The notes beneath the pieces were generated by a model that was given only the letters and a program-made list of their open reading frames with translations, was not told the DNA's origin and did not search any database. The translations under genes and the position numbers were made by a program. Positions 23,622 to 43,844 of a stretch of 64,000 bases of DNA are shown one piece after another. Position 1 is the first letter of the stretch, and each line of letters opens with the position of its first letter. The stretch is from contig NZ_CP034562.1 of the NCBI RefSeq assembly GCF_003970675.1, positions 4,721,501 through 4,785,500 on the forward strand. Reading direction: 5' to 3'. The DNA comes from Flammeovirga pectinis. Lineage in GTDB: Bacteria; Bacteroidota; Bacteroidia; Cytophagales; Flammeovirgaceae.

Positions 23622-23661
23622 TGAAATAATTAGTTCTATGTGTTTATCAATTGGTTAGTAT

Positions 23662-23675
23662 TGCAAAAATTTGCA
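23662..23675. promoter_or_regulatory. Possible operator between fahA and the aldehyde dehydrogenase gene
   Basis: TGCAAA-AA-TTTGCA is a perfect 6 bp inverted repeat with a 2-nt spacer, 41 bp upstream of the fahA start. The size and symmetry fit a dimeric regulator site. No regulator gene is adjacent, so the call is weak. Confidence 0.25.
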
Positions 23676-23808
23676 TGTTATTAAGATATTAATGTAATTA
23701 AAGAAAATCCATCGTAATATGATAACTGATAGAGAAATTACTACTACTTTTTTATCAAGTCTATCTTTTTACCTCAACCAACATCTATAGAAAATAACAG
23801 TATCAATT

Positions 23809-25245
23809 ATGAATACATCAGTAATTATCGATAATAACACTCAAAATATTGAAGATATATTCATTCACCTAAAGAAGAATGCCACTACCATTAAAAAGAC
23901 TTCGGTAAAAGAACGTATCAAGAAATTAGAAAAATTAGAACATTATATATTAGACCACAGAGATGAAATTCATGAGGCTATTTATAAAGATCTCAAAAAA
24001 CATCCTGTAGAAGTAGATACATCAGAAGTACTAACTATAGTAGGATTAATACGTCATACTAAAAAGCATTTAAAATCTTGGATGAAACCCAATAAGGTAA
24101 GTACTCCTTTAAGTATGTTGGGTACTTCTTCTTATGTATTACATGAGCCTAAAGGAGTGTGTTTAATTATTGCACCTTGGAACTATCCTTTCTATTTGGC
24201 TATCTCTCCTTTAATATATGCAATAGCTGCAGGAAATACTGTTGCAATTAAACCTTCTGAGCTATCTGAACATACATCTTTATATATTCAAAAGATGATT
24301 TCTATGCTCTATTCTATTGATGAAGTGGTAGTTATACTCGGAGGGGTTGATGTTTCTACAACACTACTTAAACAAAAGTTTAATCATATCTTTTTTACGG
24401 GTAGTTCTAACGTAGGAAAAGTAGTGATGAAAGCTGCGGTAAATAACTTAGCATCAGTCACTTTAGAGTTAGGAGGGAAGTCTCCAACGGTTATTTGTAA
24501 GGATGCTGATTTAAAAGATGCTTCTGATAAAATTACATGGGGTAAATTCTTAAATGCTGGTCAGACTTGTATAGCTCCAGATTATGCTTTAATCCATAAA
24601 TCTGTAGAAAAAGAATTTGTAGAGCAGATGACAAATACTATTAATGAGTTTTACTCTCCTAATGGTGAACTAATAAAAGCATCTCCAGATTTGTGTCGTA
24701 TTATAAATAAAGATCACTTTAATAGATTAAAAGGTCTTTTAGAGGATGCTTCTGAAAAAGGAGCTACGATTATAATGAATGGTGAAATGGATGAAGCTAC
24801 AAAATATATGCCTCCAACATTAGTGACCAATGTAACAAATGATATGCGCTTAATGCAAGAGGAAATATTTGGCCCTATTTATCCTATCAAATCATATGAT
24901 AAGATTGAAGAAGCTTTTGAAATAATTGAAGAAAAAGAGAAACCTTTAGCGTTATATATCTTTGCAAAGAAAAAGAAAACAATAAAAAAAGTGCTTCAGA
25001 ATACAACTGCAGGAGGTACTTGTATTAACGAAACTATCTTACATATCAATAATCCTGATTTACCTTTTGGAGGTATTAATAATAGTGGCATTGGTAAATC
25101 GCATGGTAAATATGGCTTTGTTGGGTTTTCAAATCAAAGAGCAGTTTTAAAAAATAGAGTAGGTTTAACTAGTGTAAAACCTGTCTATCCACCCTATGGA
25201 AAATTAGCAAGTAAGTTGACTGATTTTATTATAAAGTATTTTTAG
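23809..25245 (+). CDS. NAD(P)-dependent aldehyde dehydrogenase (class 3 / fatty-aldehyde type)
   Basis: This 478-residue aldehyde dehydrogenase oxidises an aldehyde to its carboxylic acid. Family motifs are in place: APWNYPFYLAISPLIYAIAAGNT, KPSE, FTGSSNVGKVV, the general-base glutamate in LELGGKSP (Glu220), and the nucleophile cysteine in NAGQTCIAPDY (Cys254). The length and the short N-terminus match the class 3 / AldH-YwdH type rather than the longer ~500-residue forms. The substrate cannot be told from sequence; a medium- or long-chain aliphatic aldehyde is the usual case. No partner gene is adjacent: fahA is divergent and the next gene is convergent. Confidence 0.92.
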   Translation: MNTSVIIDNNTQNIEDIFIHLKKNATTIKKTSVKERIKKLEKLEHYILDHRDEIHEAIYKDLKKHPVEVDTSEVLTIVGLIRHTKKHLKSWMKPNKVSTPLSMLGTSSYVLHEPKGVCLIIAPWNYPFYLAISPLIYAIAAGNTVAIKPSELSEHTSLYIQKMISMLYSIDEVVVILGGVDVSTTLLKQKFNHIFFTGSSNVGKVVMKAAVNNLASVTLELGGKSPTVICKDADLKDASDKITWGKFLNAGQTCIAPDYALIHKSVEKEFVEQMTNTINEFYSPNGELIKASPDLCRIINKDHFNRLKGLLEDASEKGATIIMNGEMDEATKYMPPTLVTNVTNDMRLMQEEIFGPIYPIKSYDKIEEAFEIIEEKEKPLALYIFAKKKKTIKKVLQNTTAGGTCINETILHINNPDLPFGGINNSGIGKSHGKYGFVGFSNQRAVLKNRVGLTSVKPVYPPYGKLASKLTDFIIKYF

Positions 25246-25282
25246 TCAAATTAAATTAATAAGTCTTTAAGAATTTAAAATT

Positions 25283-25324
25283 CTCCTTACAAATGTATTA
25301 CTACTGCATTATAAGGAGTTTTTT
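25283..25324 (+). terminator. Terminator after the aldehyde dehydrogenase gene
   Basis: CTCCTTA (25283-25289) and TAAGGAG (25312-25318) form a stem with a 22-nt partly pairable loop, followed by TTTTTTA. The T-tract overlaps the stop codon of the convergent gene ending at 25323. Confidence 0.75.
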
Positions 25325-25985
25325 ATATTAGTGATAATTTTTTTCTTAGCTCTCTTATATAACCAAATTGAGGACACCTTTCTAAAAGGAGGTCAAGCTG
25401 TTTAACATAAGCCTTTATTATCTCTTGGTTTTCTTCTTTATGTTCATATAAATGTTGCCCCACTAACCAGTGCACTCGTTCTGCAAGACTCATAGAATCT
25501 CCATAACTTTGATAATGTTGAGGCTGTAAATTTGATAAACGCCAAATACGTATAAACGTCAAAAAATTAGGAAGAAATTGGCTATTAGCAACAGCTATTT
25601 CTAATAATTGATAAAATGCTTTAGGGCGTTCTTTTTCTGGATGGTATTGTAATGGTTTAATTAAAAGCAGCAAACGATCAATTTTATCAAATTGCTGTAA
25701 ATTGAGTAACCTTTCAATTTCAATCAATAAGATTCTACAAGCTGCTAATTGTAATTTATCTGCTTCTAAAGGAATATATTCTACAAAAACGCTATACAGC
25801 TCTTCAAACTGTTCTGCATTTTTTTCTTGATTAGCCACCTTTATCATATCATAAAGTACCCAAGCCATTGCAGCTTGTAATTCTTCATCATTAGGAGATA
25901 TCTCTAACCAACTTCTTGCAGTTATAAATGCTTCTTGATATTTACCTTCTTCACGAAGTGAATATATTTCTCTAACAGAATACAT
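25323..25985 (-). CDS. TPR-like cytoplasmic protein of unknown function
   Basis: The 220-residue product has no signal peptide and no membrane segment. Residues 1-50 (IYSLREEGKYQEAF...ISPNDEELQAAMAWVLYDMIK) look like one TPR hairpin plus a following helix, and the rest is predicted helical. The AWVLYD segment after a TPR recalls the N-termini of some larger bacterial proteins, but this protein stops without a catalytic domain. The gene starts 2 bp after the end of the small membrane protein gene at 25988, so the two are translationally close and likely share a transcript. No function can be assigned. Confidence 0.7.
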   Translation of the reverse strand: MYSVREIYSLREEGKYQEAFITARSWLEISPNDEELQAAMAWVLYDMIKVANQEKNAEQFEELYSVFVEYIPLEADKLQLAACRILLIEIERLLNLQQFDKIDRLLLLIKPLQYHPEKERPKAFYQLLEIAVANSQFLPNFLTFIRIWRLSNLQPQHYQSYGDSMSLAERVHWLVGQHLYEHKEENQEIIKAYVKQLDLLLERCPQFGYIRELRKKLSLI

Positions 25986-25987
25986 AA

Positions 25988-26203
25988 TTACTTTTTAAAC
26001 ATTCCACCCTTATCTTTATCTCTTTTACTTGTTTTTTTAGTTAAGAAAATTCTAGCTGCTAATAATGCAATTACACCACCTGCTAACTGTAAATTTTCCA
26101 TATAATCATTTCCTTTATCGTACTCAAAATAAGCCAATAATAAAAATGCTACTGCTAAAATAACAAAAATGATATTTACGATGTTTCCAAATCCTTTGCT
26201 CAT
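25988..26203 (-). CDS. Small two-helix membrane protein
   Basis: The 71-residue product has two hydrophobic segments: residues ~9-28 (VNIIFVILAVAFLLLAYFEY) and ~39-57 (LQLAGGVIALLAARIFLTKK). They are separated by a short acidic/polar turn, and the tail is lysine-rich (KKTSKRDKDKGGMFKK). The positive tail suggests that the C-terminus faces the cytoplasm. It lies between metG and the TPR-like gene on the same strand, downstream of the metG terminator. The family is not recognised and the function is unknown. Confidence 0.65.
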   Translation of the reverse strand: MSKGFGNIVNIIFVILAVAFLLLAYFEYDKGNDYMENLQLAGGVIALLAARIFLTKKTSKRDKDKGGMFKK

Positions 26204-26217
26204 AGTTTTAGTTATTT

Positions 26218-26254
26218 AAAAAAGGTTACCAATCAAAGAGATTAGTAACCTTTT
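26218..26254 (-). terminator. metG terminator
   Basis: AAAAGGTTACCAAT (26220-26233) pairs with ATTAGTAACCTTTT (26241-26254) with one wobble pair. Read on the - strand it lies 10 bp after the metG stop and ends in a run of six T. Confidence 0.85.
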
Positions 26255-26264
26255 AAGTTTTATA

Positions 26265-28331
26265 TTATCTAATAGTACTTCCTTCTGATACTTGTGCAGA
26301 TGGAGATACAAACGTTAAAGAACCGTCTTTATCTTCTGCCATCAGAATCATACCTTCCGATTCTATTCCTCTAATTTTTCTTGGTGCAAGGTTAATCAAA
26401 ATAGAAACCTGTTTTCCAATTACATCTTCTGGAGCAAAGAAATCTGCAATACCACTTACTACAGTCCTTTTGTCAATTCCTGTATCTACTGTAAGTTGTA
26501 ATAATTTTTTTGCCTTCTTTACTTTTATTGCTTCAACAATGGTTCCTACACGGATATCCATTTTTTGAAAATCATCAAAAGTAGTTTCATCTTTTTGAGG
26601 TTCTACAGGAGTTTGAGCAATTTTAGTTTTCTCTAACTTCTCTATCTGTTCCTCAATAGTTTTATCTTCTACTTTACTAAATAATAGTTCAGCAGGAGCC
26701 AAACGATCATAAGCAGTAATTAAATCTGGGCTACCTACTTTATCCCAATCCAGAGATTCCATGCCTAACATGTTCTGAATTTTCTTAGCCGTATTTGGCA
26801 AGAATGGATCGATAGTAATAGCCAAGTTTGCCGCAATTTGAAGCGACATATTTAATATAGTTTTTACCAACTCAGGATCTTGTTTATACAATTTCCAAGG
26901 TTCAGTATCTGCTAAATATTTGTTACCTAAACGAGCCAATTTCATTGCCTCAATTAGTCCTTCTTTAAATTTATATTGACCAATTAACTTTTCTACACGT
27001 AATGGAATTGCTTTCATTTCTTCAATGATATCATTTTCCATTGGTGTAAATTCTCCAGCTACAGGTACTTCCCCTTTAAAGTATTTGTGAGTAAGTACAA
27101 CTGCTCTGTTAATAAAGTTACCAAGAATAGCAACCAACTCATTATTTATACGCTCTTGATAATCTTTCCAAGTAAATTCAGAATCTTTATTCTCTGGTGC
27201 AATCGATGTTAATACATAACGTAATTCGTCTTCTCTACCAGGTAAATCTTCTAAATACTCGTGTAACCAAACAGCCCAATTACGTGATGTTGATAACTTA
27301 GCACCTTCTAAATTTAAAAACTCATTTGCAGGAACATTATCTGGTAAGATATATCCTTCGCCATGTGCTTTTAATAAGATAGGAAATATTAAACAGTGGA
27401 ATACAATATTGTCTTTACCAATAAAGTGAACTAGCTTAGTATCAGCCTTTTTCCAATAATCTTCCCAGTTTTTACCTTCTTTAGCCGCCCAATCTTTTGT
27501 TGCTGAAATATAGCCAATTGGAGCATCTAACCAAACATATAAAACTTTACCATCAGCACCTTCTACAGGAACTTTTACACCCCAGTCTAGATCCCTTGTC
27601 ATAGCTCTAGGTTGTAACCCTTGATCTAGCCAAGATTTACATTGTCCTAAAACAGAATTTTTCCATTCTGCAGGGTTATGGTGTTCTCTACCATCTAACT
27701 TACCATCTACAATCCATTCACGAAGCCAATCTTCGTGCTTGTTCATTGGCAAATACCAATGGCGAGTAGTTTTTAAAGTAGGAGTAGCTCCAGTAATTTG
27801 AGATTTAGGATCTATTAAATCTGTTGGACTTAATGCTGAACCACATTTTTCACACTGATCTCCATAAGCACCTTCGTTACCACATTTTGGGCAAGTACCA
27901 GTAATATATCTATCTGCAAGAAATTGCTTAGCTTCTTCATCATAATATTGAGAAGACTCTTTTAATTCAAATTGTCCTTTATCATTTAAAACCTTAAAGA
28001 AATCTTGTGCCGTTTCATGATGAATAGGAGCAGAAGTTCTATGGAATAAATCAAAAGAAATACCGAAGTTCTCAAAAGTCTCTCTGATATTCTTATTGTA
28101 CTTATCAATAATATCTTGAGGTGTGATACCATCTTTTTGTGCACGAATAGTGATTGCAGCACCGTGCTCATCACTTCCACAAATAAATGCTACATCTTTT
28201 CCTTTCTGACGTAATGATCTAACGTAAATATCTGCTGGTAAATACGCACCTGCAATATGTCCGATATGTAAAGGACCATTTGCATACGGCAATGCCGCAG
28301 TTACTGTATATCTATTATAATGCTTTGACAT
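26265..28331 (-). CDS. metG: Methionine--tRNA ligase
   Basis: The 688-residue product is a full-length class I methionyl-tRNA synthetase that charges tRNA-Met and initiator tRNA. The HIGH motif is at residues 22-25 ([11 protein letters not shown]). The zinc-binding insert contains [18 protein letters not shown], and the KMSKS loop is present as KLSTS in [10 protein letters not shown], as is usual for this enzyme. The C-terminal ~100 residues form the OB-fold tRNA-binding domain ([20 protein letters not shown]..., [19 protein letters not shown]), which dimerises the enzyme. The start at 28331 gives the expected N-terminus. A promoter with TAACTTTG lies upstream. Confidence 0.97.
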
Positions 28332-28393
28332 GAATTTGTCTCAAAATTTCTTATTGGCCTATATTACTCTTGTATACTGACGATAAGTCGCTG

Positions 28394-28426
28394 CAAAGTT
28401 AATCAATTTGAAGTGGTTATTCACAA
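28394..28426 (-). promoter_or_regulatory. Predicted metG promoter (Bacteroidota type)
   Basis: On the - strand TAACTTTG (28401-28394) matches the -7 consensus TAnnTTTG. A TTG (28426-28424) lies 22 bp upstream as a weak -33 element. The likely transcription start is ~55 bp before the metG ATG. Confidence 0.5.
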
Positions 28427-28577
28427 CCCTTTTACACTGAATAACAGATGATTTACTTCATCTAAATCAAAGTTATTCACATAATAAACTTAAAAATGTT
28501 GATAACTTTTTGAAAATCGATAAATCATATAAAAAATTATCAATTTTCAGAAACTTATGCACAGTATTGAAAATAGT

Positions 28578-28608
28578 TTTGATGTATATAAATGAAAAGC
28601 ATACTTTG
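28578..28608 (+). promoter_or_regulatory. Predicted methyltransferase-gene promoter
   Basis: TTTG (28578-28581) is followed after 19 bp by ATACTTTG (28601-28608). This fits the Bacteroidota sigma factor spacing, with the conserved TTTG half of the -7 element. It lies ~75 bp before the preferred start at 28682. Confidence 0.45.
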
Positions 28609-28681
28609 CACTTACATTTATTCAAACCAACCACAAAGTTAATGGTTGTTCATTATAGATAAACAAAAAGTAGTGAATAAA

Positions 28682-29419
28682 ATGCAAAAGGGTGAAGAAT
28701 GGTTCGATCAGTGGTTCAATACACCATATTATCACATCTTATACCAGAACAGGGACTTTAATGAAGCAGAAACTTTTGTAAAAAAGCTTTCAACTCATTT
28801 AAATATATCAAATGTTGATAAAGTTTTAGATTTAGCATGCGGTAAAGGCCGACATGCTATTTTTCTTAATAAACTTGGCTTTAATGTAGAAGGAATAGAC
28901 CTTTCAACAGAAAGTATTCAACATGCCAAAGAATTTGAGAACGAAAAGCTAAAGTTTTCAACACATGATATGAGGGAGCTCTATAAAAAAGAGGAATTTA
29001 CTTTCATATTAAACCTATTTACTAGTTTTGGTTATTTTGAAACTGAAGAAGAAGATCTTTTAGCTTTAAAAATGATAGCCAATAGCTTAAAACGTGATGG
29101 GTATTTTGTCTTAGACTATTTCAATACCTATAAGGTTATTAATAGTTTACCAGAGAAATTAGTAATTAAGCGACCTGAAATGGATTTCAATGTGCATAAG
29201 TATTTAAAAAATCGACATGTAATGAAAGAAATTGCATTTTCAGCAGATGGAAAAGACTATTTATTCACAGAAAGAGTAGAAGCTTTAAAGAATAAAGACT
29301 TTTTAAAGCTATTTGAAAGCGTAAATCTCAAAGTTATCAACACTTTTGGCGATTATAACTTGAATTTATTTGATAGAGAGCACTCTGATAGGATGATTTT
29401 TGTTGTCCAGAAGCAATAA
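28682..29419 (+). CDS. SAM-dependent methyltransferase (class I)
   Basis: The product has 245 residues from ATG 28682. A TTG at 28646 would add 12 residues (FIIDKQKVVNK), but the family starts close to the MQKGEEWFDQWF segment, so I prefer the ATG. Motif I is clear (VLDLACGKGRHAIFL), followed by the acidic residue that binds the SAM ribose in NVEGIDLS. Then come FILNLFTSFGYF (motif II region) and DGYFVLDYFNT (motif III region). The substrate is unknown; small-molecule and protein targets are both possible. It is a single-gene unit ended by the strong hairpin at 29436. Confidence 0.85.
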   Translation: MQKGEEWFDQWFNTPYYHILYQNRDFNEAETFVKKLSTHLNISNVDKVLDLACGKGRHAIFLNKLGFNVEGIDLSTESIQHAKEFENEKLKFSTHDMRELYKKEEFTFILNLFTSFGYFETEEEDLLALKMIANSLKRDGYFVLDYFNTYKVINSLPEKLVIKRPEMDFNVHKYLKNRHVMKEIAFSADGKDYLFTERVEALKNKDFLKLFESVNLKVINTFGDYNLNLFDREHSDRMIFVVQKQ

Positions 29420-29435
29420 TCATAATTTTATGCAC

Positions 29436-29473
29436 AAAAAAGGCTGAATACTTAATTGTATTCAGCCTTTTTT
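29436..29473. terminator. Terminator after the methyltransferase gene
   Basis: AAAAAAGGCTGAATAC and GTATTCAGCCTTTTTT form a perfect 16 bp hairpin with a 6-nt loop. The T-run follows on the + strand and the A-run mirrors it, so it could work in both directions. A TTATGCACA DnaA-box match (29428-29436) abuts it. Confidence 0.9.
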
Positions 29474-29549
29474 GTTGACAATTTTTTAAAATTCACAAAT
29501 TCTATTGATTTACTAACTAAAAATAGGTTGGTAAATGCCTAAAAACAGA

Positions 29550-29590
29550 AAAGTTATCAACAATTAGCCTAATTAATTGTTGATAACTTT
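29550..29590. repeat. Perfect 16 bp inverted repeat containing TTATCAACA
   Basis: AAAGTTATCAACAATT (29550-29565) is the exact reverse complement of AATTGTTGATAACTTT (29575-29590), with a 9-nt loop. Each arm contains TTATCAACA, one base from the DnaA consensus. On the - strand it is followed by TCTGTTTTT and lies 131 bp after the TPR gene, so it may serve as that gene's terminator; a protein-binding site is the alternative. Confidence 0.55.
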
Positions 29591-29721
29591 CCTTGTTTAT
29601 TGTATAACTTCTTGATTTATTAGAGAATAGGATGTTTATAAGTTAATAACATTCTGAAATGTCCTTTTTTCTAAAAATTATAAACATTTATGGGGATAAC
29701 CTTTTGATAAAAACTTATTTT

Positions 29722-31572
29722 CTAAGATTTGTTCACATTATCGCCTCTAAGTTGTCTAAATCTCTTTCGAGCATCAACTTCATAGCTAGATCCTTTAAAG
29801 TCTATCAGGTGGTTTTTAAAGTATTCCATTGCCTCTGTTTTATCATTTAGGTGATCTTGGTAGATTGTACCCAATAAATAGTTTGCGTCATCAGCAAGAA
29901 TATCATCACCGTAAAATTCGAGAATTTCTTTCAAAGGTTCTAATGCTTCTTCATATTTCCCCAATTTTATTAACAAATGTGCTTTTTCCCAAAGAATCTC
30001 ATCAGTTAAGCTGTGTCCCTTAAAGTCCACTAACATTTGTTCATAACTTTCTAGTGCTTCTATGTATTTTCCTTGAAATATCAACAAATCAACTTCAGCA
30101 TATGCTTCCATTGCAAAAGAAGTAGTATCCAAGTTTAAATTATCACTTATCAACATAGATAAAGCAATTGCATCATTACTAATCGTTCTTGATGTAGCTA
30201 ACTTTAAAACATCTAATTGAGATTGTGCTAACTTAAAATCACCTGTATAGTAATAAATTTTCGCATTTTTCAATTTCGCAATGTGTCCAATTTTCATTTC
30301 TTTATTCGCTTTAGAAACTTGTGAATAAAGTAATGATGCTTCCCATGGATCATCTTTTAGAAGATATATATCGCCCAAATCAAGTTTTGCTTGTGATATT
30401 AAGCGCTTTGGAATTGCTCTATTGTTGATAAGTTCTTTTAATTCTACAATTGCCTCGTCCTTTTCATCTAAATAGAAAGCCTGTAGCAATGCCATATTTC
30501 TTAAAGCCTCTCCAGTTTGATCAGTTATCCCCATTTCATCAATAATTTGTTGGTAATCGTTGACAAGTGAAAGAATTTGATCTTTATCAATAGGGTAGGT
30601 GCTTTTTACAATAGCTTCTTTTGTTTCAATTAAATATTTTCGAGCAACTGGGTAAACTGCATATTCTTTGTATCTATCCACAAGGTATTGGAAGATCTTT
30701 GATGCATTTTTATAGTCTGCATTGTTCTTTGCTAAACGCCCAATTTCTAAAATCTTATAACCTTCTAATCTTAATCTCTTATCAAGAGCTCTAGCTTGCA
30801 CAAATGCCCCGTAGAACTTCTTCTGCTGTAAGTAGTACCAAACGATCATCTCATTAAACACAGTCATGTTAGAGTTCTTCTGAACAAGCGTGAGGAGCTT
30901 AGGTTCCAAAAGTTCAAAGTCTTCTTCTGTTAGAAGACGATCCTGAAGCGCCATTTGCACATACTCTAGTTGATCTGGTTTAATTAAAAGTAGTTTCATG
31001 TACTCATCTATCATCAAATCATACTTCCCCCAATGTGCATAGAGATCTGCTAATTCGTAATAGAATATTTCATCGCTGTTTTTCTCACCAGTACGGTAAC
31101 ACTTCTCAGCATAAGAAAATAAACTAAGATCAATACAATACAAAGCACAGTAACGTAGTTTGGTTGTATTGTTAGCAACTTGATGAATAAACGTATCAAT
31201 TGATTTATCTGCAGCAGCTGTATCTTTTTCTAAAAGCTTTACCCGAGTATAATCAACATTGTAAATAGCATTTTGTGGATTACTCTTTACAACTTTTTTT
31301 AAATACTTATCTGCTTCTTTATATTCTTCTTTATTTAAAAGAATGGTCAGATAGTTTTCATGAATGTTTGGTATAAGGTTTTTATTCTTTGATAAATCTC
31401 GATACAACTCTAAAGCTTTATCAAACTCTTCTGTTTTATAATATTCCTGAGCCAGGTTTAATTTCTCTTCTGTTTTATTTTGTCCAATACTTTTTTGAAC
31501 AGGGATACCTACCAAAAAGAAAAGAGAGAGAATGAGCAATCTCGAATTTTGTCTAAGTACGGTTTTCAACAT
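29722..31572 (-). CDS. Secreted tetratricopeptide-repeat protein
   Basis: The 616-residue product has a signal peptide (RLLILSLFFLVGIPVQKSIGQ, cleavage near residue 30). TPR helical hairpins fill most of the chain, for example AQEYYKTEEFDKALELYRDL (34-53) and, near the end, ALESYEQMLVDFKGHSLTDE and YEEALEPLKEILEFYGDDIL followed by EAMEYFKNHLIDFKGSSYE. It is probably a periplasmic or outer-membrane-associated scaffold. No lipobox or sorting domain is present. Proteins of this type are widespread in Bacteroidota, but a specific role cannot be read from the sequence. The gene begins beside the 1.2 kb gene-free stretch. Confidence 0.8.
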   Translation of the reverse strand: MLKTVLRQNSRLLILSLFFLVGIPVQKSIGQNKTEEKLNLAQEYYKTEEFDKALELYRDLSKNKNLIPNIHENYLTILLNKEEYKEADKYLKKVVKSNPQNAIYNVDYTRVKLLEKDTAAADKSIDTFIHQVANNTTKLRYCALYCIDLSLFSYAEKCYRTGEKNSDEIFYYELADLYAHWGKYDLMIDEYMKLLLIKPDQLEYVQMALQDRLLTEEDFELLEPKLLTLVQKNSNMTVFNEMIVWYYLQQKKFYGAFVQARALDKRLRLEGYKILEIGRLAKNNADYKNASKIFQYLVDRYKEYAVYPVARKYLIETKEAIVKSTYPIDKDQILSLVNDYQQIIDEMGITDQTGEALRNMALLQAFYLDEKDEAIVELKELINNRAIPKRLISQAKLDLGDIYLLKDDPWEASLLYSQVSKANKEMKIGHIAKLKNAKIYYYTGDFKLAQSQLDVLKLATSRTISNDAIALSMLISDNLNLDTTSFAMEAYAEVDLLIFQGKYIEALESYEQMLVDFKGHSLTDEILWEKAHLLIKLGKYEEALEPLKEILEFYGDDILADDANYLLGTIYQDHLNDKTEAMEYFKNHLIDFKGSSYEVDARKRFRQLRGDNVNKS

Positions 31573-32791
31573 TTCACTATTAATAGATAATAAAAAAATA
31601 AAAAATTTAAAGTTCCTTTTATTATTATTAGGGGTGTTTATAAGTTGATAACTCGGTTTACTAACAGCTTTTTACCACTTACAAACAAATTGATCTAATA
31701 ACTATTCACTGCCTAGGATACCTAAAAACAGTGTTTTATGGCGCTTTTCAACAGTATGTTTATGCATAAGTTGATTAAAGTTATTCAGTTAGTTTTACTG
31801 TGCGCAAGCGCCCTTTTTACCCACATCCACTTATTAACACCTATGTGAATAGCGTGAATAAGTACCAATTGTGAATTACTGTTGATAATATACCCACCTT
31901 TTCAACATTTTATCAACTAATCACAATTTTAGACATTTATAGTGTGAATTATGTGGATAACTAACGTTGATATCTAATAATTGTACAAAAATTTATCCGT
32001 TTGATATAATTTTAGTGAATAACTTTTATTTTCTCTATTAAGTTACACACTTTGATTAATTATAGACCATTTAGCGCCAAAAATAGTATCCATTTTTAAA
32101 AAGTTTTCAACAGCTGTATTTTTCATTTTTAGAGTGATATTTTTTTTTGTCTCTCTATACTTGAGTATTCTCTAAGACCCTTTCAGTTTTATGATTTTAG
32201 AATTGATTTGCGCACAGCCTGTGAATACCAAGTTTGTTTATATGTGTATATCTTAAGTTTAAATCTGATGTATATTATGGATATTCAGTAAGTTAACACT
32301 CTTATCAACGCACTAAAAAACCTCTATTTATGTGCATATCTCAGTGAATATTGCTCTTTTTGATCCATATGTGGATAAGTCTGTTGATAAGTACCTCTTT
32401 TATCCACAAAAATTGAAGGCCTATGTTAGTATTACTGTTTATAACTAATGAATTTAAAGAAATATAGCTCATAACACTATGTAGGGGCAATTATAGCTTT
32501 AAATGTTAAAAAGATGCCTATATGGAGTATAAACAGTGTTTTTAGTTGTTAATCAATGATTTAGATTAGTAGTAAATGATAGATTTTTAATCAATTAAAT
32601 GTTATTCACATTGATATATGGATAAGTACCAATTAATAAAGCGCTATTAAGGGTAATTGATGAATAATTATACATTTTCAATTACTTATAAACACTATAA
32701 CTGTTTCTAAAATCTAAGAATGAGAAAATAAAGGACAAAAAATAAGTCAGTACTTTCATACTGACTCATTCTTCTATAAGAATTTATTTTA
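31573..32791. other. Candidate replication origin (oriC): 1.2 kb gene-free stretch with DnaA boxes
   Basis: No open frame is supported here. The stretch is very AT-rich and holds four perfect TTATNCACA DnaA boxes: 31952-31960 (-), 32370-32378 (-), 32400-32408 (+) and 32602-32610 (+). Variants with one mismatch occur at 31844, 31853, 31870, 31880, 31943, 32220 and 32382. By a rough base-composition estimate about 0.1 perfect match would be expected by chance. The pair at 32370/32400 is divergent and 21 bp apart. mnmG, often near oriC, and three parS-like sites lie 2-5 kb to the right. No dnaA gene is in the window, and the minus-strand genes on the right side do not give the usual strand switch. 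Confidence 0.6.
32745..32766 (-). terminator. Terminator after the Ig-like lipoprotein gene
   Basis: AGTCAGTA (32745-32752) and TACTGACT (32759-32766) form a perfect 8 bp stem with a 6-nt loop. On the - strand TATTTTTTG follows, 26 bp after the stop codon. Confidence 0.8.
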
Positions 32792-34546
32792 TTATCTTTT
32801 CTTATCTGTGTTGATAATTGTTTCTTCTCTTCTGATTTCCCAGTTAGCTTCTACTTTTATTTTCTTTGGAAAGAATGCGGTAGACTCTGGAGGTACTCTA
32901 GTTTTAAAATCTCCAGGGAACCATTCACCATCTCCATTTTCATCAATTAATACTCTTAGTTGATAAGTACCTGGTTTTACATATTGAAAAGAGAAAAGGC
33001 GTTCATCTTTTACTTCTTGAACAACTTCTGCTTTTGAGTCTATGAGTTGTACAACAAAACTATCGTGGCTGCCTTTTACTTCTCCTTCTACAATTCCATA
33101 TTTATCTAGTTGCTTAATAGTAAAGCTAACCGTCTTTGAATTTGTAGAATCATCTTTTACAGATACAAAAGCATTCTCATTAAAAATAAGACTAAATGCA
33201 GAGTCGACTTCAAAACCAGGAATTGTTAATTCTGTTTTATTAAAATTGAAAGTCATTTCCCTATCAAGAAGAACACTATCTAATCTTGTGGTATCTTCAC
33301 TATATACATAGTACATACTATCGATGTTCATTTCTTTCATAGGTAAAGGAAACTTTAAAGTGACATCATAAGTTTCTTCTGGAATAAGATCATTATCCTT
33401 TGGTAGAATTTTATCAAATTTAATTCTAACAATTTCCACTTCTTCTTCTTCAGCACCTAAGGCAGATCCAATTGTATTAATTGCTCCTCCTAAAAGTCCA
33501 CCACCTTTTTTCTTTGTTTGCTTTTTTTCTTCAGCAAGCACTTCACTTTTACTAGGAAACATAATGAGCGTATCAAATTCTATTTTTTGCTCTATAGAAT
33601 CTATAGCATAACCAGTTATCTGAAGTGAGTCTTCCATATCTCTTTCTCCAGTATATATTAGTTTAATTTCTCCTTTTTCGTTCATACTAAAAATACTATC
33701 TGAATAAGAATTTTTAGTTGGGAAATCTATTCCATATTCTACAGCAAATTTATTGAACTTAACAAGTAGGTCTGTACTTTCAGCTTTTACATTTTTGAAG
33801 GCGAGATCAACTAAATCATAATCTCTAACAAAAAGTTCTACGCCATCAATATTTTTATCTAGTAGGAGGGAGTCAGAAAAGAAACCAACTTTCTCTTCTC
33901 TTAAAGTGTATTTGTAATCTTCGTTTACATCTTCTATAGAATAAACATTATAATAGCCAGGCTTAAATCTTTCTAAAATAAATAAACCATCTTTTACAGT
34001 TCTAGAAAAATATACGGGAGGATCTGTATTTACATCAAGAGAATCATAAGGATTATATAATGCTATAATTGCTCCTTCGATTGGTTCGTTTGTAAGTAAA
34101 TCTCTTACCTGTCCTGTAACTTCTAGAGAGTCTAAATAGTCTCCAGTACTAAATGAAAAACGCACATTCTTTGCCGGATTTTTTTCTGTAACATCTACTA
34201 CAGATTTTCCGAAATCAAAAAAGTAAGTTGTATTCTGCTCAAGTGTATCTAAGATGTTTATGATTACTTTGTTTCTAGCAAACTTAGATTTATACCTAAA
34301 TGATTTTTTGTGTGGTGTAATAATTAAGTTCTGTTTCAGCTTTTCTTCTTGAATATATTCATCAAAATATAGCGTAACTTTTAACTTAGTTGTATCAACA
34401 TTTGTTTGTCCATTGTACGGATCACTTGCTCCAAATCTAGGAGGAATCTCATCTTTTGGACCTCCGGTAGGAGAGGAGATTACTGCACAAGCATATACTG
34501 TAAATAGTATATAGATTGAGATAATGATTCTTAAAAATAAGTTCAT
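32792..34546 (-). CDS. Outer-surface or periplasmic Ig-like domain lipoprotein
   Basis: The 584-residue product has a lipoprotein signal with lipobox VYAC (Cys20). Residues ~35-130 form a bacterial Ig-like (SbsA/Big_5 type) domain: PPRFGASDPYNGQTNVDTT..., LYFDEYI, NTTYFFDFG and VRFSFSTGD. A carboxypeptidase-regulatory-like segment follows (VTGQVRDLLTNEPIEGAIIALY, ~140-220). The C-terminal part repeats short beta-rich units and ends with PGTYQLRVLIDENGDGEWFPG. It is a typical Bacteroidota cell-envelope lipoprotein, often found near mnmG and the DUF4175 gene as here. The function is unknown; a structural role at the envelope is likely. Confidence 0.82.
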   Translation of the reverse strand: MNLFLRIIISIYILFTVYACAVISSPTGGPKDEIPPRFGASDPYNGQTNVDTTKLKVTLYFDEYIQEEKLKQNLIITPHKKSFRYKSKFARNKVIINILDTLEQNTTYFFDFGKSVVDVTEKNPAKNVRFSFSTGDYLDSLEVTGQVRDLLTNEPIEGAIIALYNPYDSLDVNTDPPVYFSRTVKDGLFILERFKPGYYNVYSIEDVNEDYKYTLREEKVGFFSDSLLLDKNIDGVELFVRDYDLVDLAFKNVKAESTDLLVKFNKFAVEYGIDFPTKNSYSDSIFSMNEKGEIKLIYTGERDMEDSLQITGYAIDSIEQKIEFDTLIMFPSKSEVLAEEKKQTKKKGGGLLGGAINTIGSALGAEEEEVEIVRIKFDKILPKDNDLIPEETYDVTLKFPLPMKEMNIDSMYYVYSEDTTRLDSVLLDREMTFNFNKTELTIPGFEVDSAFSLIFNENAFVSVKDDSTNSKTVSFTIKQLDKYGIVEGEVKGSHDSFVVQLIDSKAEVVQEVKDERLFSFQYVKPGTYQLRVLIDENGDGEWFPGDFKTRVPPESTAFFPKKIKVEANWEIRREETIINTDKKR

Positions 34547-34631
34547 GTGTACTTTAATTTGTACTGAGTGGTGACTGCTGTTTTTATCTTTTGTTCAAAG
34601 GTAATAAGCATAAATTATTCTGATACAAAAT

Positions 34632-34661
34632 AAGGCATATCTCTTAAATGAAATATGCCTT
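34632..34661 (-). terminator. mnmG terminator
   Basis: AAGGCATAT (34632-34640) and ATATGCCTT (34653-34661) form a 9 bp stem with a 12-nt loop, 30 bp after the mnmG stop on the - strand. The following ATTTTG gives only a short T-run. Confidence 0.7.
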
Positions 34662-34691
34662 TTTAAATAAATATGATATTTTATTTTATAC

Positions 34692-36566
34692 TTAGACTTT
34701 TTGTTTGTCTAAATACACCATCAATATTGTAATATCTGCAGGAGTAACTCCGCTTATTCTAGAGGCTTGGCCTAAAGTTAGAGGAGCAATTTTTGTCATT
34801 TTCTCTCTTGATTCAGATGATAAAGCAGTGATTGATTTGAAATTAAAACCTTCAGGAATTTTATAGTTTTCAAGGGTAGTTAATTTCTCAGCAAGCTTTT
34901 GTTCCTTCTCAATATAGTTTTCATATTTCAATAGGATCTCAGCTTCTTCTAAAGCCTTCTCTCCAAAGCCATCAAAAGCTTCTTTTAAAGAAGGATTAGC
35001 TTCCATAGTTAAATCCATACCAACATGTGGTCTTTTGATAAACTGAGTTGCTTTAATACCTTGAGATAACGGCTGTAATCCTTTTTCGTTTAAAAGAGGA
35101 TTTGCAGTATTAACTTTAATACTCGTTTCTCTTAGTGTTTCGACAACATGGTCAATTTGCTTCTTCTTTTTCTCTACAGCTGTAAATCTTTCTTCTGCAG
35201 CGAGACCTAAATCATATCCTAATTTAGTTAACCTTATATCGGCATTATCTTGTCTTAGAAGTATTCTATATTCAGCTCTAGAAGTAAACATTCTGTAAGG
35301 TTCTTCAGTTCCTTTATTAATAAGATCGTCTATAAGAACACCTATATAAGCTTCTGATCTTTTTAAGATAAATGCTTCTTTTTCCTTTATTTTATTGTGT
35401 GCATTTATCCCTGCCATTAAGCCTTGAGATGCTGCTTCTTCATAACCAGTAGTACCATTAATTTGACCAGCAAAATAGAGGTTCTCTACTAACTTTGTTT
35501 CTAGTGTAGATTTTAATTGTGTAGGAGGGAAGAAGTCATATTCAATTGCATAACCAGGACGGAACATTTTAGCATTCTCAAAACCTTCAATTTTTTGGAG
35601 CGCTTTGAATTGGACATCCTCAGGAAGAGATGTTGAAAAACCATTGATATACATTTCACAAGTATTCCAACCTTCTGGTTCAACAAAGATTTGATGTCTA
35701 TCTCTTTCTGCAAATCGATTGATTTTATCTTCAATAGATGGGCAATATCTTGGGCCTAATCCTTGGATTCTTCCGTTAAACATTGGTGATCTATCAAAGC
35801 CAGTTTTTAAAACATCATGTACTGCATTACTAGTATATGTAATAAAACAACTTCTTTGTTTTGTTAGTGTAGTGGTAGTATCAGAGTAAGAAAATTTTTC
35901 TGGATTTTCATCTCCAGCTTGCTCTTGCATTTTCTCCCAATTTAAAGAACGTCCATCTACTCTTGGTGGAGTACCTGTTTTCATTCTTCCAGCTTCAAAG
36001 CCTAAACCAACTAATTGTTCCGTTAAACCTTTTGCCGCATGTTCACCACTTCGTCCTCCTCCAAATTGTTTTTCACCAATATGAATGAGTCCATTTAAAA
36101 AAGTACCATTCGTTAAAACAACAGACTTAGTATTGAATACTACTCCTAAACTTGTTTTTACTCCAGTAATTTTATCGCCTTCCATAACAATTTCAGTTGC
36201 CATTTCTTGCCATATATCTACATTTAGATTTGCCTCTAAAGTATCTCTCCATTCTTGTGCAAATACCATTCGATCACTTTGAGCTCTTGGACTCCACATT
36301 GCAGGACCTTTAGATCTATTCAACATTCTAAATTGAATCATAGATTTATCTGTCACAATTCCAGACATACCACCAAGAGCATCAATTTCTCTAACGATCT
36401 GTCCTTTGGCAACACCACCCATTGCAGGGTTACAACTCATTTGAGCTATAGTTTGCATATTCATTGTAACTAGTAGCACACTAGATCCTAGTGTAGCGGC
36501 AGCATGAGCAGCTTCACAGCCTGCATGTCCTCCTCCAATTACTATAACGTCATAAGATGGATACAT
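34692..36566 (-). CDS. mnmG: tRNA uridine-5-carboxymethylaminomethyl modification enzyme MnmG (GidA)
   Basis: The product has 624 residues from the ATG at 36566. A GTG at 36590 would add eight residues but lies inside a ParB-site-like palindrome, so the ATG is preferred. MnmG with MnmE adds the carboxymethylaminomethyl group to U34 of certain tRNAs. The FAD-binding motif is at the very start (YDVIVIGGGHAGCEAA). Signature segments CNPAMGGVAKGQIVREIDALGG, GTFLNGLIHIGEKQFGGGRSGE and the C-terminal helical MnmE-binding domain are present. The length matches the family. It lies downstream of ybeY with the parS-like sites between them; mnmG commonly lies near bacterial origins. Confidence 0.97.
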   Translation of the reverse strand: MYPSYDVIVIGGGHAGCEAAHAAATLGSSVLLVTMNMQTIAQMSCNPAMGGVAKGQIVREIDALGGMSGIVTDKSMIQFRMLNRSKGPAMWSPRAQSDRMVFAQEWRDTLEANLNVDIWQEMATEIVMEGDKITGVKTSLGVVFNTKSVVLTNGTFLNGLIHIGEKQFGGGRSGEHAAKGLTEQLVGLGFEAGRMKTGTPPRVDGRSLNWEKMQEQAGDENPEKFSYSDTTTTLTKQRSCFITYTSNAVHDVLKTGFDRSPMFNGRIQGLGPRYCPSIEDKINRFAERDRHQIFVEPEGWNTCEMYINGFSTSLPEDVQFKALQKIEGFENAKMFRPGYAIEYDFFPPTQLKSTLETKLVENLYFAGQINGTTGYEEAASQGLMAGINAHNKIKEKEAFILKRSEAYIGVLIDDLINKGTEEPYRMFTSRAEYRILLRQDNADIRLTKLGYDLGLAAEERFTAVEKKKKQIDHVVETLRETSIKVNTANPLLNEKGLQPLSQGIKATQFIKRPHVGMDLTMEANPSLKEAFDGFGEKALEEAEILLKYENYIEKEQKLAEKLTTLENYKIPEGFNFKSITALSSESREKMTKIAPLTLGQASRISGVTPADITILMVYLDKQKV

Positions 36567-36582
36567 TCTATTATTATTTTTT

Positions 36583-36598
36583 CGTTCCACGTGGAACG
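36583..36598. other. parS-like site 1
   Basis: CGTTCCACGTGGAACG is a perfect 16 bp palindrome with the parS core GTTNCACGTGNAAC. It lies 17 bp upstream of the mnmG ATG. Its inner 14 bases equal those of parS sites known from pseudomonads. Confidence 0.75.
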
Positions 36599-36710
36599 TA
36601 AGTAAATTTCTTCAGTTTTCTGATTTACAGTGAATAAACTCAACTGTAATTATATGCAAAGATAATAAATCAAAAATTATCAAAGACTTAATGTTTTCAT
36701 ATAATAAAAA

Positions 36711-36726
36711 AGTTCCACGTGAAACA
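36711..36726. other. parS-like site 2
   Basis: AGTTCCACGTGAAACA matches the parS consensus TGTTNCACGTGAAACA except for the first base. It is 128 bp (centre to centre) from site 1. Confidence 0.8.
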
Positions 36727-36743
36727 CTCAATAAAATTGAAAA

Positions 36744-36759
36744 TGTTTTACGTGGAACA
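36744..36759. other. parS-like site 3
   Basis: TGTTTTACGTGGAACA differs from TGTTTCACGTGAAACA at two positions and keeps the TGTT...AACA ends. It is 33 bp from site 2. Three such sites in 180 bp are very unlikely by chance and suggest a ParB-binding centromere. Confidence 0.7.
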
Positions 36760-36788
36760 CAGTTAGAAGGTCAACTTAGAATAATGAA

Positions 36789-37229
36789 TTAAGCTTTTAG
36801 TGTTTCATTTCTGAATGCTAATTGTTCATCTTCTAAATCTCTCATCTTTTTAGCCTCCTCATCAGATTTATCTTTAAACCCAAGAAGATGTAAAATACCA
36901 TGAATTAATACTCTATGAAATTCATCAGTTTCGTTTGTACCAATAGTTTTAAAATTTTCTTTAATTCTATCAATACTTACAAATATGTCTGACTCTATTT
37001 CATTTTCATATTCAGAGTTATCAAAAGTAATTATATCAGTATAAGTATCATGATCTAAATACTCCACATTTATTTTATGTAGGTATTCATCAGAGCACAA
37101 TATATAATTGACACCAATTAATTTGAAATCAAATTTTTCGATAACAGATTGAATCCATTCTTTTAAAGGTCCTTCATTAGGAATATCAAAAGAAATATCT
37201 TCTGTAAAAAAAGTAATTTCTCTTTCCAT
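36789..37229 (-). CDS. ybeY: Endoribonuclease YbeY (16S rRNA maturation)
   Basis: The 146-residue product has the usual YbeY length. The family signature is near the end of the fold: FHRVLIHGILHLLGFKDKSDEE. The first two zinc-ligand histidines are present in HGILH, but the third, normally in GxDH, is replaced (GFKDK). Bacteroidota forms commonly show this, so the gene is not broken. Upstream segments LHKINVEYLDHDTYTDIITFD and ESDIFVSIDRIKEN are standard. It is the last gene of the DUF4175-ATPase-ybeY cluster, 3 bp after the ATPase gene, and lies just upstream of the parS-like sites and mnmG. Confidence 0.93.
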   Translation of the reverse strand: MEREITFFTEDISFDIPNEGPLKEWIQSVIEKFDFKLIGVNYILCSDEYLHKINVEYLDHDTYTDIITFDNSEYENEIESDIFVSIDRIKENFKTIGTNETDEFHRVLIHGILHLLGFKDKSDEEAKKMRDLEDEQLAFRNETLKA

Positions 37230-37232
37230 TAA

Positions 37233-37649
37233 TTAAATATAGAAAGTAAGAGTAATTGCTTTTCCTTCGTTAGAGAAGTTTACTTCATCTGCAAGGTGTT
37301 TCATAAGAAAGATTCCTCTTCCTCCGGGCTTATCAATATTTTCTGGAGCAGTAGGATCGGGTAGACCTTCATAGTCAAAGCCTTTTCCTTCATCTTCTAT
37401 TGTAAAGGCAATTTCATTGTCTGATACTTTTAACTCTAAATGAACGTTCTTATCCTTATCATTTTTATTTCCATGGATAATAGCATTGTTTACAGATTCT
37501 GTAACAGCAATCATGATATTGCCATAAATGTCATCATTGAAATTAAACTCTTCACGAGCTTGATCAATAAAACTCTCCGCAATACGAACATTTTCTATTA
37601 GCGAAGGTATCTTTAATTTGAATGGTTTATTCATTGTGCTTGTAGGCAT
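37233..37649 (-). CDS. Anti-sigma-factor-type ATP-binding protein (HATPase_c_2, RsbW-like)
   Basis: The 138-residue product is a single GHKL ATPase domain. The N box is visible in AVTESVNNAIIHGNK, the G1 region in FTIEDEGKGFDYEGL and the G2 region in GGRGIFLMKHLAD. Such stand-alone domains are serine kinases that bind a sigma factor or phosphorylate an STAS antagonist in partner switching. No sigma factor or antagonist gene is adjacent. It sits in a tight cluster: the DUF4175 gene ends 1 bp before it and ybeY begins 3 bp after it. An internal Met at residue 6 (MNKPFK) is an alternative start. Confidence 0.85.
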   Translation of the reverse strand: MPTSTMNKPFKLKIPSLIENVRIAESFIDQAREEFNFNDDIYGNIMIAVTESVNNAIIHGNKNDKDKNVHLELKVSDNEIAFTIEDEGKGFDYEGLPDPTAPENIDKPGGRGIFLMKHLADEVNFSNEGKAITLTFYI

Positions 37650-37650
37650 T

Positions 37651-40600
37651 TCAATCCTTTATCTTTTCAAAGTATTTATTCACTTCCTGCTTGTAATAAG
37701 TATTCAAAGAGGTAGGAATTGTACGTAACAATTCTATTTGATTTTCCTTCTGTTTTAAATATTCATCAAAACTATCCGGAGGAGGTATCTGTCTTTGCTT
37801 TTTAGCTGTTTCAGCTTTCCTCTCTTCATCTTTCCCTTTTTCTTTCTTTGCCTTTTCAGACTCAAGCATTCTGGTTAAAATTTCTTTTTGTCTTTTTATT
37901 AATTTATCGGTAAGTTCTTTATTAACTAAATCATCTTCCGTTTTTTCCATTTCTTTAAGGATCTTTCCATAGCCATTACCACCCTCTTTTATTCCTTCTC
38001 CGTCTTGGCCATCTTTCTTCTGTCCTTGCATTTGTTCAGGTCCTGATCCCATACTTTGTTTTAAAGCATTTCTAATCATTTCCTGCTGTGCTGCTAATTT
38101 AGCAAGTTCTTTAGATAATTCCTTTCCAGATTTGCCACTCTTTTTCAAGTTTTCCATCTGTTGGTTTAATTGCTGCTGCATCTGACTAGGGCTAGGGGAT
38201 GAAGAAGACTGTTTCTGGTTCATCTGTTGGCCAGCCATACTTTGGCTCATCTGCTGTTGCATATTATCTAATATGTCACTCAATAGTAATGTAAGGTTAT
38301 TTATTGAGGTCATTGTAAACTGCTGTTTACTAGCTGCTACTTCAGGTACACGTCTCTTAATAGCATTTAAGCTTTCATCCATATATTTGTTCATATCTGT
38401 TACTTCTCTTGTAACGAACGACTCTATTTGGAATACTCTTTTAGAGAGTGCAACTAAACTATCTTCTATGTATTTAGCATCATCTCTCAATTTAAGTTGT
38501 GTTTGCGACAATTCAACAAATTTTGGATCAATTCTTCTCACCTTTTTAAAGGATTCCATAAGATCTTCTTGATCGAAGGATAGTTTTAAAAGATTTTCCA
38601 TTATTTGTCTCAGTGCATCATGGTCTTCACTTATTTGTTCCATTTCTGCAGATTGCATACTTTGTTGCATTTGCTTAGCCATTTGCTGCATTTTATTGGC
38701 CGCTTTCTTTTGTGATTGATGAGCGTCTTTCTTTTTATCTTGTTTTAATTGTTCAGAAGCATTTTCTTGTTCTTTCTGAATTGATCTTTCACTTGGAGTA
38801 AACTGTTCAAAGTCTTGATTAGTTTGTTCCTTCTTATCCATTTTACGAAGTTCCTCCATCTCTTGTTTTATTTTTTCGAACTTTTCATTCAGTTCTTGCT
38901 GCTTTTTAACAAGGTCTTCTTTTGCCTTGTCATTTTCAGCTTTTTTAGAGGGGTCTTCTGCTTCTTTTTCCTGCTTCTTTTGTAGTTCATCAGTTTCCTT
39001 TGCAACCTCTTGTTGCTTCTGAGAAAGGTCTTCTAATTTACTAGATACTTCTTTTGCTTTTTGTTCTATCTGTAGCTTCTTAAAAAGTTTAATAGTTCTT
39101 TCTAATTCATTTTTAAGATTCTTCTGCTTTTTCTCGATATTCTTTAAATTTTCTTGGAGTGGTTGGTTAATATAGTTTTGCTCCATTAACTTCTGTAACT
39201 CATCATATAATTTTTGAGTTTCTTCATCATTAATATCTTCAATAATTTTTTGAAGTTGTTCTGCTTTTTGAGCAACACTTTTATCCTGATCAGAAAACTT
39301 ACTTTGCTTATCTTTTAATTCTTGACTTTGTTGCTGAAGATTTTCTAATTCTTGCTGTAATGCTTTTCTTTCTTCAATTAGTTTTTGAATGTCTTTTTTA
39401 TCTTGCCAAGTTAATTGTCTTTTACCTTTTAATTTTTCCTCTAATTTTTTAAGGTTTTTATTTAATTCATCAGCTTTAGCAAGAGTTTCTTCTAATTTAT
39501 TTTCAGTTTCTTTTTTACTTTCTTCTAGATCTTTTTCTATTTCTGCAGAGGTAGGTAGCATAAAAGTATACATAGGTGTTTTACTTCTTTTATTACCGTT
39601 TACACCATCATTATCATAAACCTCAACAAAGTACTCTAACTTATCACCTTCTTTAAGGTTAAATTGATTTGTTTCTAATTTGTAATAGAAACTTTGATCA
39701 ATTGCTTTCCTATTAAAAGGAATATCTATTTTATTAAAAGTAGTAGGAGATTTAGTATCATCTTTCTTTTTAATTCTATAGCGAGTACGTAATCTAGTGA
39801 TACCATAATCATCACCAATATTTCCACCAAATACAAGATAATCAAACATGACTGTGTCTTGGTATTGCCTCATGCTTATACTTGGGTATTTATCTTTTAT
39901 CACATTTAAGAAATAAGAAATACTATCCTTATTTGTACCATAAATATTTGATAAAGTGACACTATAGGATGTTGATTCATTTGTTTTATAGACGTATTTA
40001 AATACGTTGTTGTCTACTATTTCAGCATCAGATTTTAGTGCAATTTCTTTAAAATATAATTGAATAGAATCTGTTGTTTTGGTATCAAATAACCATGTAA
40101 TATTTGATCCTTCAGGAACAAGTAAATTACCTGTATTTTCTAAAGTCTCATTTGATTTATTTGTATATCTAGGGTAGGTAACCTGTACGCTAAACTTAGA
40201 TAAATTAGGGCGAGTTAATGTGTTGATTTTAAATTCTTTTGAATAATATCCCGCTGCTTTAAATCTAAATTTAACCCCATGTTGCATTTTTTTGAATGTA
40301 TGAACAAAAGAATACCCAGGATTAGATTTTTGTAGTTTGATTAAAGATCCTTTATCTGTTTCTATATATACATCAGATGGTAATACCTCGCCACTTAATG
40401 CTACTTTTAACTCAAAGTCATCTCCTTGGAAGGGTTCTAAGTTTGAGGTTAGGAGATTAAAAGTAAAGGGTGCTATTGGTAAAAACTCTTTATCAAATTG
40501 AATAATCTTAGGAGTACTTTCTACAATAATTTGTGGTCTTACAAATAAGATAGCAAACAATACTACTAAAGCGGGTAGGAGATACCTATACCAATACCTT

Positions 40601-41034: not shown

Positions 41035-41102
41035 AAGGTTTGTGATAATATTATGAGTTAATAATTTAGGATAGAAGAATGAATAATTCCCTATTAAAAA
41101 AT

Positions 41103-41136
41103 AAAACTGATTCTAAAGTAAGAATCAGTTTTATTT
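41103..41136 (-). terminator. Terminator after the peptide-binding lipoprotein gene
   Basis: AAAACTGATTCT (41103-41114) and AGAATCAGTTTT (41121-41132) form a perfect 12 bp stem with a 6-nt loop. On the - strand it is followed by ATTTTT and lies 28 bp after the stop. Confidence 0.88.
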
Positions 41137-41159
41137 ATCATATAGTAATATAATTAATA

Positions 41160-42929: not shown

Positions 42930-43075
42930 TGAATTTTCTATTGTATTACAGCTACATAAATTGTTGTAGCTGGATTCGTACTCTAACCATTTGAAGAAGA
43001 ATACAGTATGTGAGTATAAAAATATTTAAAATAATGATTTATAGCGTATAATTCATGGAATTATTTCTTAAATAA

Positions 43076-43843: not shown

Positions 43844-43844
43844 A

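Follow-up and report, generated by a model that had tools for sequence, protein, structure and literature searches.

Among the Bacteroidota, an origin of replication (oriC) linked to mnmG has been reported in Flavobacteriaceae, i.e. in Mariniflexile litorale (PMC11278836) and in Algorimicrobium (PMC12843772). In both cases, Ori-Finder and skew placed the predicted oriC next to mnmG, and the M. litorale origin lies apart from dnaA (PMC11278836), with the caveat that the figure legend of that paper swaps the oriC and ter labels relative to the text. With regard to mechanism, the basal unwinding system (BUS) has been described for Bacillus subtilis and most bacterial origins, the rule being three or more NAN trios at a distance of 0–16 bp from a DnaA box with at most two mismatches, and Ile190 and Arg264 have been named for single-strand binding by DnaA (PMC8287927). 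In B. subtilis and Helicobacter pylori, the boxes adjoining the trios overlap or are fused (PMC8235120), and both species possess a bipartite oriC with two box clusters and dnaA as the gene between them (PMC8235120, PMC5295017). The terms ‘oriC’, ‘replication origin’ and ‘gidA’ do not occur in the main text of the Flammeovirga genus paper (PMC8653839). No study of a Flammeovirga or Cytophagales origin was found among the open-access papers listed. DoriC, the database of predicted origins for complete genomes, may hold a prediction.

The DNA analysed here (the window, 64,000 nucleotides) corresponds to positions 4721501–4785500 of the 5,207,776-bp chromosome I (C1) of Flammeovirga pectinis, whose genome of 6.68 Mb further comprises a replicon of 1,411,355 bp and one small contig. 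Our direct observations concern the anatomy of the sequence, its conservation, the switch in skew and the presence of genes for DnaA and ParB. Between two minus-strand ORFs (29722–31572 and 32792–34546; ORFs of at least 100 aa considered) lies a gap of 1,219 bp (31573–32791) with a GC content of 26.9 % vs 32.0 % in the window. The initial annotation had described it as 1.2 kb free of genes, and we likewise found no ORF of at least 100 aa in it. Based on its excess of DnaA boxes, the skew minimum and its alignment in nine Flammeovirga genomes, this AT-rich gap is very probably the oriC of chromosome I. As in the Flavobacteriaceae, which belong to another order of the Bacteroidota (PMC11278836, PMC12843772), mnmG is close by.

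The left neighbour of the gap is a TPR-repeat protein gene (29722–31572, minus strand) and the right neighbour a Big_5/Ig-like protein gene (32792–34546, minus strand), both conserved in relatives. Next to the latter lies mnmG (gidA; 34692–36590, minus strand; TIGR00136, 850 bits). Left of the TPR gene lie a class I SAM methyltransferase (MTase) gene (28646–29419, plus strand), which contains conserved boxes, and metG (26265–28331, minus strand). The mnmG, Big_5 and TPR genes were found together in 17 of the 20 relatives fetched, with the gap between Big_5 and TPR; this position is kept in all nine Flammeovirga and only partly in the wider order. An Rfam search of 28000–33500 returned no family reaching its gathering score. 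Elsewhere in the window, two giant ORFs (3202–12144 and 13336–22281; 2980 and 2981 aa) are adjacent, each preceded by an ORF of 305–307 aa, and have the appearance of a tandem duplication; residues 1–2000 of the ORF at 3202–12144 match a laminin-G-like family.

All four perfect TTATNCACA boxes that had been annotated in the gap were confirmed in position and strand (31952 and 32370 on the minus strand, 32400 and 32602 on the plus strand). At least seven one-mismatch variants had also been claimed, and our count of boxes with at most one mismatch is 22, including the four perfect ones and one palindromic site scored on both strands. When the gap was shuffled 1000 times with its dinucleotides preserved, perfect boxes had a mean of 0.15 (maximum 2; the initial annotation had estimated about 0.1), and boxes with at most one mismatch a mean of 2.88 (maximum 8), neither of the observed numbers being matched in any shuffle. 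Samples of this genome totalling 1.505 Mb had no more than 11 boxes with at most one mismatch in any 1.2-kb stretch. A motif-free comparison of the gaps of four of the nine Flammeovirga species with the 1.505 Mb of sampled genome pointed in the same direction: eight of the ten most enriched 8-mers were pieces of TTAT[T/C/A][C/A]ACA, one merely overlapping, and mostly represented fragments of TTATTCACA, TTATAAACA, TTATCAACA and TTATCCACA. The whole genome contains 62 copies of TTATCCACA (complete list), and the gap is the only place on chromosome I, which harbours 50 of them, where three occur within 460 bp; the uniqueness of the cluster is judged by this complete list and the 1.505 Mb of samples, not by TTATNCACA, the listing of which covers C1 up to about 3 Mb. 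Within the gap, the boxes form three tandem pairs in the same direction on the minus strand (31943+31952, 31870+31880 and 31844+31853; 31844–31960) with steps of 9–10 bp, a block also present in the Flammeovirga genus alignment, a group of three boxes (32370 and 32382 on the minus, 32400 on the plus strand; 32370–32408), and the perfect box at 32602 accompanied by TTATCCATA at 32617 on the minus strand (32602–32625).

Since raw skew in the window tracks gene orientation, base skew was calculated at fourfold-degenerate sites. Expressed as plus strand, the six genes at 22362–31572 gave −0.38, +0.03, −0.40, −0.50, −0.54 and −0.24, and the eight genes at 32792–44207 gave +0.33, +0.31, −0.33 (3 sites), +0.43, +0.44, +0.18, +0.20 and 0.00. 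A minimum located elsewhere had been named beforehand as grounds for rejecting an origin; the cumulative minimum over 29 window genes falls exactly at the gap, the exceptions being three genes with negative values beyond 49 kb, right of the gap, one of them at −0.81 (56368–58305). The objection that genes do not switch strand across the gap is correct, as minus-strand genes lie on both sides; the base skew nevertheless switches there. For the replicon as a whole, strand-corrected skew was taken from samples of chromosome I. It was positive in those running from the gap through contig base 1 and on to 1.69 Mb, with a negative value at 0.91 Mb, and negative in the samples from 1.82 to 4.29 Mb. 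Considering this change of sign near 1.8–1.95 Mb, the terminus is placed there; the two arms between it and the gap then measure about 2.3 and 2.9 Mb. Two congeners behave likewise, i.e. the skew flips between 3.08 and 3.18 Mb in G006, with mnmG at 3.13 Mb, and within the first 0.26 Mb in G008, with mnmG at 0.11 Mb. The strand composition of the sampled sequence, with the exceptions given, therefore switches at this locus.

The absence of dnaA from the window, which had counted against an origin, holds true, the gene being unlinked. A full DnaA is encoded at C1:550397 (519 bits vs a cut-off of 344; the sole strong dnaA match), with Ile and Arg at the positions of Ile190 and Arg264 as counted on the 8btg alignment. 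A dnaA-linked origin was rejected: assuming a circular contig, the gap and dnaA are about 1.0 Mb apart, and none of the 62 TTATCCACA is within 70 kb of dnaA. About 4 kb from the gap, three parS-like sites (36583–36598, 36711–36726 and 36744–36759, with 2, 1 and 1 mismatches) occupy the start of mnmG and the gap between mnmG and ybeY, i.e. three in the 64-kb window vs 0.19 expected, and nine sites with at most two mismatches were found in the 1.505 Mb of own-genome samples. A ParB gene is present at C1:3123783. At least one parS-like site was found near mnmG in 18 of the 20 fetched relatives; the other two (G013 and G037) also do not have Big_5 and TPR there. Taken together, the skew switch, the parS-like sites, the synteny and an unwinding-type element support the oriC proposed by the initial annotation. 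At a distance of 87 kb to the left of oriC (L137:976–1458; C1 about 4.666 Mb), another parS-like site is surrounded by seven TTATN[C/A]ACA boxes.

The unwinding-type element (31619–31651, minus strand) consists of a fused DnaA-box pair (31635–31651), CCC (31632–31634) and the trio-like repeats CTA ATA ATA ATA (31620–31631). From 31651 to 31619 the minus strand reads TTATCAAC-TTATAAACA-CCC-CTA-ATA-ATA-ATA-A, i.e. two boxes at a step of 8 bp, a GC spacer of three bases and then 3′-GAT TAT TAT TAT. The box pair, the short GC spacer and the NAN trios with 3′-GAT in first place resemble BUS as described, whereas the later trios are TAT instead of GAT and the boxes are degenerate (PMC8287927), both of them (TTATCAACT and TTATAAACA) having two mismatches. 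The window thus contains a box with at most two mismatches to TTATCCACA within 0–16 bp of the trios, as well as at least three uninterrupted NAN trios (3′-GAT TAT TAT TAT-5′), and judging by these sequence features the core appears to work like a BUS origin. The adjoining stretch (31573–31620) reaches the TPR gene, has an AT content of 87.5 % and is presumed to be the first DNA to melt; the 60-mer with the highest AT content of the window, scanned in 5-base steps, begins at 31571. An AT-rich, unwinding-type sequence is therefore found directly beside the boxes.

Across the Flammeovirga genus alignment, the element is nearly invariant apart from an interruption of the trios. The strict trio rule applies to three of nine genomes (G000, which is that of the window, G002 and G003), while the remaining six carry CTA-ATA-ACA-ATA, in which one trio is interrupted, and fail it, a further difference from BUS (PMC8287927). 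Because of these six congeners, we regard 31619–31651 as probably, and not more firmly, the melting site, the interrupted trio being the main weakness of this designation. In the same place, other Cytophagales have TTATCCAC-nTATCCACA-GnC-nTAATAATAA. This consensus comes from 34 chosen sequences, the alignments of 34 and 32 sequences being composed of the window and loci picked by eye from 80, and among the 34 chosen loci the BUS rule holds for 30, compared with a mean of 4.0 and a maximum of 9 of 34 in shuffles of those sequences. A sequence-only model built from the 32 sequences ranked the element as the top site of the genome (E 2.1e-4; next site 0.043), and a model from 29 loci without Flammeovirga still placed it first, though weakly (E 0.049 vs 0.21 for the runner-up).

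The boxes extend beyond the gap on one side. A second field (28332–31572) with 18 TTATN[C/A]ACA sites spans the metG–MTase gap, the MTase gene, the MTase–TPR gap and the TPR gene, and two further boxes within metG (27107 and 27288; 27107–27296, minus strand) are each common to seven of nine species. The field therefore runs about 4.5 kb past the gap through TPR, MTase and metG, with nothing comparable towards mnmG, where a single TTATN[C/A]ACA site occurs in 5.6 kb right of the gap. Seven perfect TTATNCACA boxes, to which the initial annotation had made no reference, lie left of the gap (six at 28417–29436, one at 30320), together with many TTATCAACA/TTATAAACA variants. The background density of TTATN[C/A]ACA is 0.20 per kb, and the best background window of 3.2 or 5.6 kb contains seven sites. 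The TPR gene alone has five sites and the MTase gene four, numbers reached among 797 background ORFs of at least 200 aa by one (at least five sites) and three (at least four sites), respectively.

These coding-embedded boxes are shared between species. In codon alignments of the nine species, five sites in TPR, three in MTase and three in metG are common to at least five species, and these counts were reached by 0, 0 and 1 of 400 permuted motifs, a control that preserves relatedness and composition, not codon structure; Big_5 (eight species aligned) and mnmG have no shared sites. Fisher tests of codon identity within boxes were set aside as biased, the boxes having been selected for conservation. 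The TTATTCACA box in TPR, present in all nine species, overlaps a conserved LYSQ motif, and amino-acid constraint may explain part of its conservation. The nine genomes perhaps represent four independent lineages. G007 and G008, whose MTase–metG gap has no boxes, show a weaker field than the others. About 60 kb left of oriC (L138:7067–8260; C1 about 4.692 Mb), seven boxes were also observed in or beside a histidine-kinase-type gene that adjoins a sigma-54 response regulator.

As in the bipartite origins of B. subtilis and H. pylori (PMC8235120, PMC5295017), a gene separates two box clusters at this locus. The locus differs from them in that this gene is TPR, not dnaA, and in that TPR and its neighbours carry boxes themselves; it is therefore not filed under the bipartite class. 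Extra potential DnaA-binding boxes are likewise known from the oriC-proximal clusters of B. subtilis (PMC5295017) and from E. coli datA, but the present field is contiguous with oriC, one-sided and within coding sequence. It is this one-sided field, with coding-embedded boxes that several species have in common, that we regard as new, and we infer its function: the boxes in TPR, MTase and metG are probably additional DnaA-binding sites, copied within moments of initiation, and their role would most likely be local DnaA titration or that of a second subcomplex of a bipartite-like origin. The more specific proposal that selection keeps these boxes in coding DNA on one side of oriC, as a titration or second-subcomplex module that doubles straight after initiation, is tentative and somewhat less than an even prospect.

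The many boxes in coding DNA beyond the gap would also suit a locus that titrates DnaA or serves in regulation (datA- or DBC-like), the true origin then being elsewhere on chromosome I, and in B. subtilis the joint removal of clusters outside oriC is described to cause early initiation (PMC5295017). Considering that the skew switch sits at the gap, that an unwinding-type element is present, and that three TTATCCACA this close together occur nowhere else on chromosome I, we hold this explanation to be very unlikely.

The wider order gives further information on the oriC proposed here. In 22 other box-positive Cytophagales, clear enrichment is confined to the 700 bp before TPR (6.9 per kb), with 0.4–0.5 per kb inside TPR vs 0.14–0.18 for permuted motifs. 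Therefore, a compact origin looks ancestral, and its extension would largely be specific to Flammeovirga, although G010 shows a hint of such an extension. Of the 58 loci from outside Flammeovirga whose flanks are complete, 36 (20 of them Pontibacter) have fewer than three TTATN[C/A]ACA upstream of TPR, and five of these 36 are still part of the element alignment; this tally covers the 62 of 80 loci with full flanks and indicates that the location of the origin is not universal in the order. An earlier tally of 50 of 79 (80 loci, one of them dropped for its short upstream region) was discarded, trivially few boxes having been counted as positive. In the Pontibacter records (L213–L259) the TPR gene is retained and all 20 full-flank loci are below the threshold; this lineage may have relocated its origin. 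At two other loci (L189:1–799 and L192:5598–5911), 25 and 15 perfect boxes, respectively, lie upstream of TPR, many at steps of about 10–11 or 21–22 bp, as if helically phased.

The element model matched 77 of 118 genomes of the order at E ≤0.1, the weak matches being of doubtful meaning. Among the best 30 of the 77 (E up to 7.2e-4; training loci included), a TPR gene lies within 1.5 kb in 23, and four of the other seven are genomes of the genus g28, with no TPR homologue located within 1.5 kb of the element. At the one g28 locus inspected (L292), a box-rich gap with the element lies beside a glutamate-dehydrogenase-type gene. These data bear on the possibility that the element, which in the window precedes the TPR start by 47–79 bp, is a promoter or leader of that gene only, with the boxes as transcriptional DnaA sites: the g28 arrangement indicates that it is not merely a TPR promoter, and both parS and the skew fit an origin, which makes a purely transcriptional role extremely unlikely.

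Rep_3 genes are located at C1:4302190, C2:416309 and C3:25124 and none in the window, i.e. the locus has no Rep_3 plasmid-type origin. The one on chromosome I is near the start of a stretch with weak positive, i.e. reversed, skew (about 4.29–4.59 Mb), an 8-kb piece of which gave no match in G006. Drawn from the Rep_3 gene and the skew, the reading of this stretch as an integrated plasmid, possibly a megaplasmid, is only partly supported. That it contains the main origin, as the Rep_3 initiator and the skew sign change near 4.3 Mb might suggest, has a practically negligible probability, since between 4.595 Mb and the gap the skew returns to negative values, with a single positive combined value as the exception (4.7215–4.7375 Mb), G006 has a Rep_3 frame of equal length (399 aa) on its contig C3, which is separate from its C1, and the congeners flip at mnmG. 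On chromosome II (C2), the noisy skew turns positive at 0.35–0.42 Mb and falls back at 1.05–1.19 Mb; its Rep_3 gene (416309) is accompanied by a parS-like site (421378) without a TTATCCACA cluster, and C2 at about 0.42 Mb is likely the origin of the second chromosome.

With the gap at 31573–32791 as oriC, we infer DnaA binding, melting and initiation at this site. DnaA, produced from the unlinked gene, would bind the box arrays and be handed from the fused pair at 31635–31651 across CCC onto the single-stranded trios (31620–31631), opening the AT-rich stretch towards the TPR gene. The helicase would then be loaded and two forks depart, and ParB on the parS sites at mnmG would segregate the new origins.

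Our analysis provides a precise origin candidate for a Bacteroidota genus with two chromosomes, and the sequence signature could locate origins in Cytophagales where dnaA is uninformative. The codons of TPR, MTase and metG may be constrained by replication, and the boxes within coding sequence provide a natural system for testing whether initiation is timed by DnaA titration adjacent to oriC. If the proposed one-sided module exists, it would operate in a genus that has the replication of a second chromosome to time as well.
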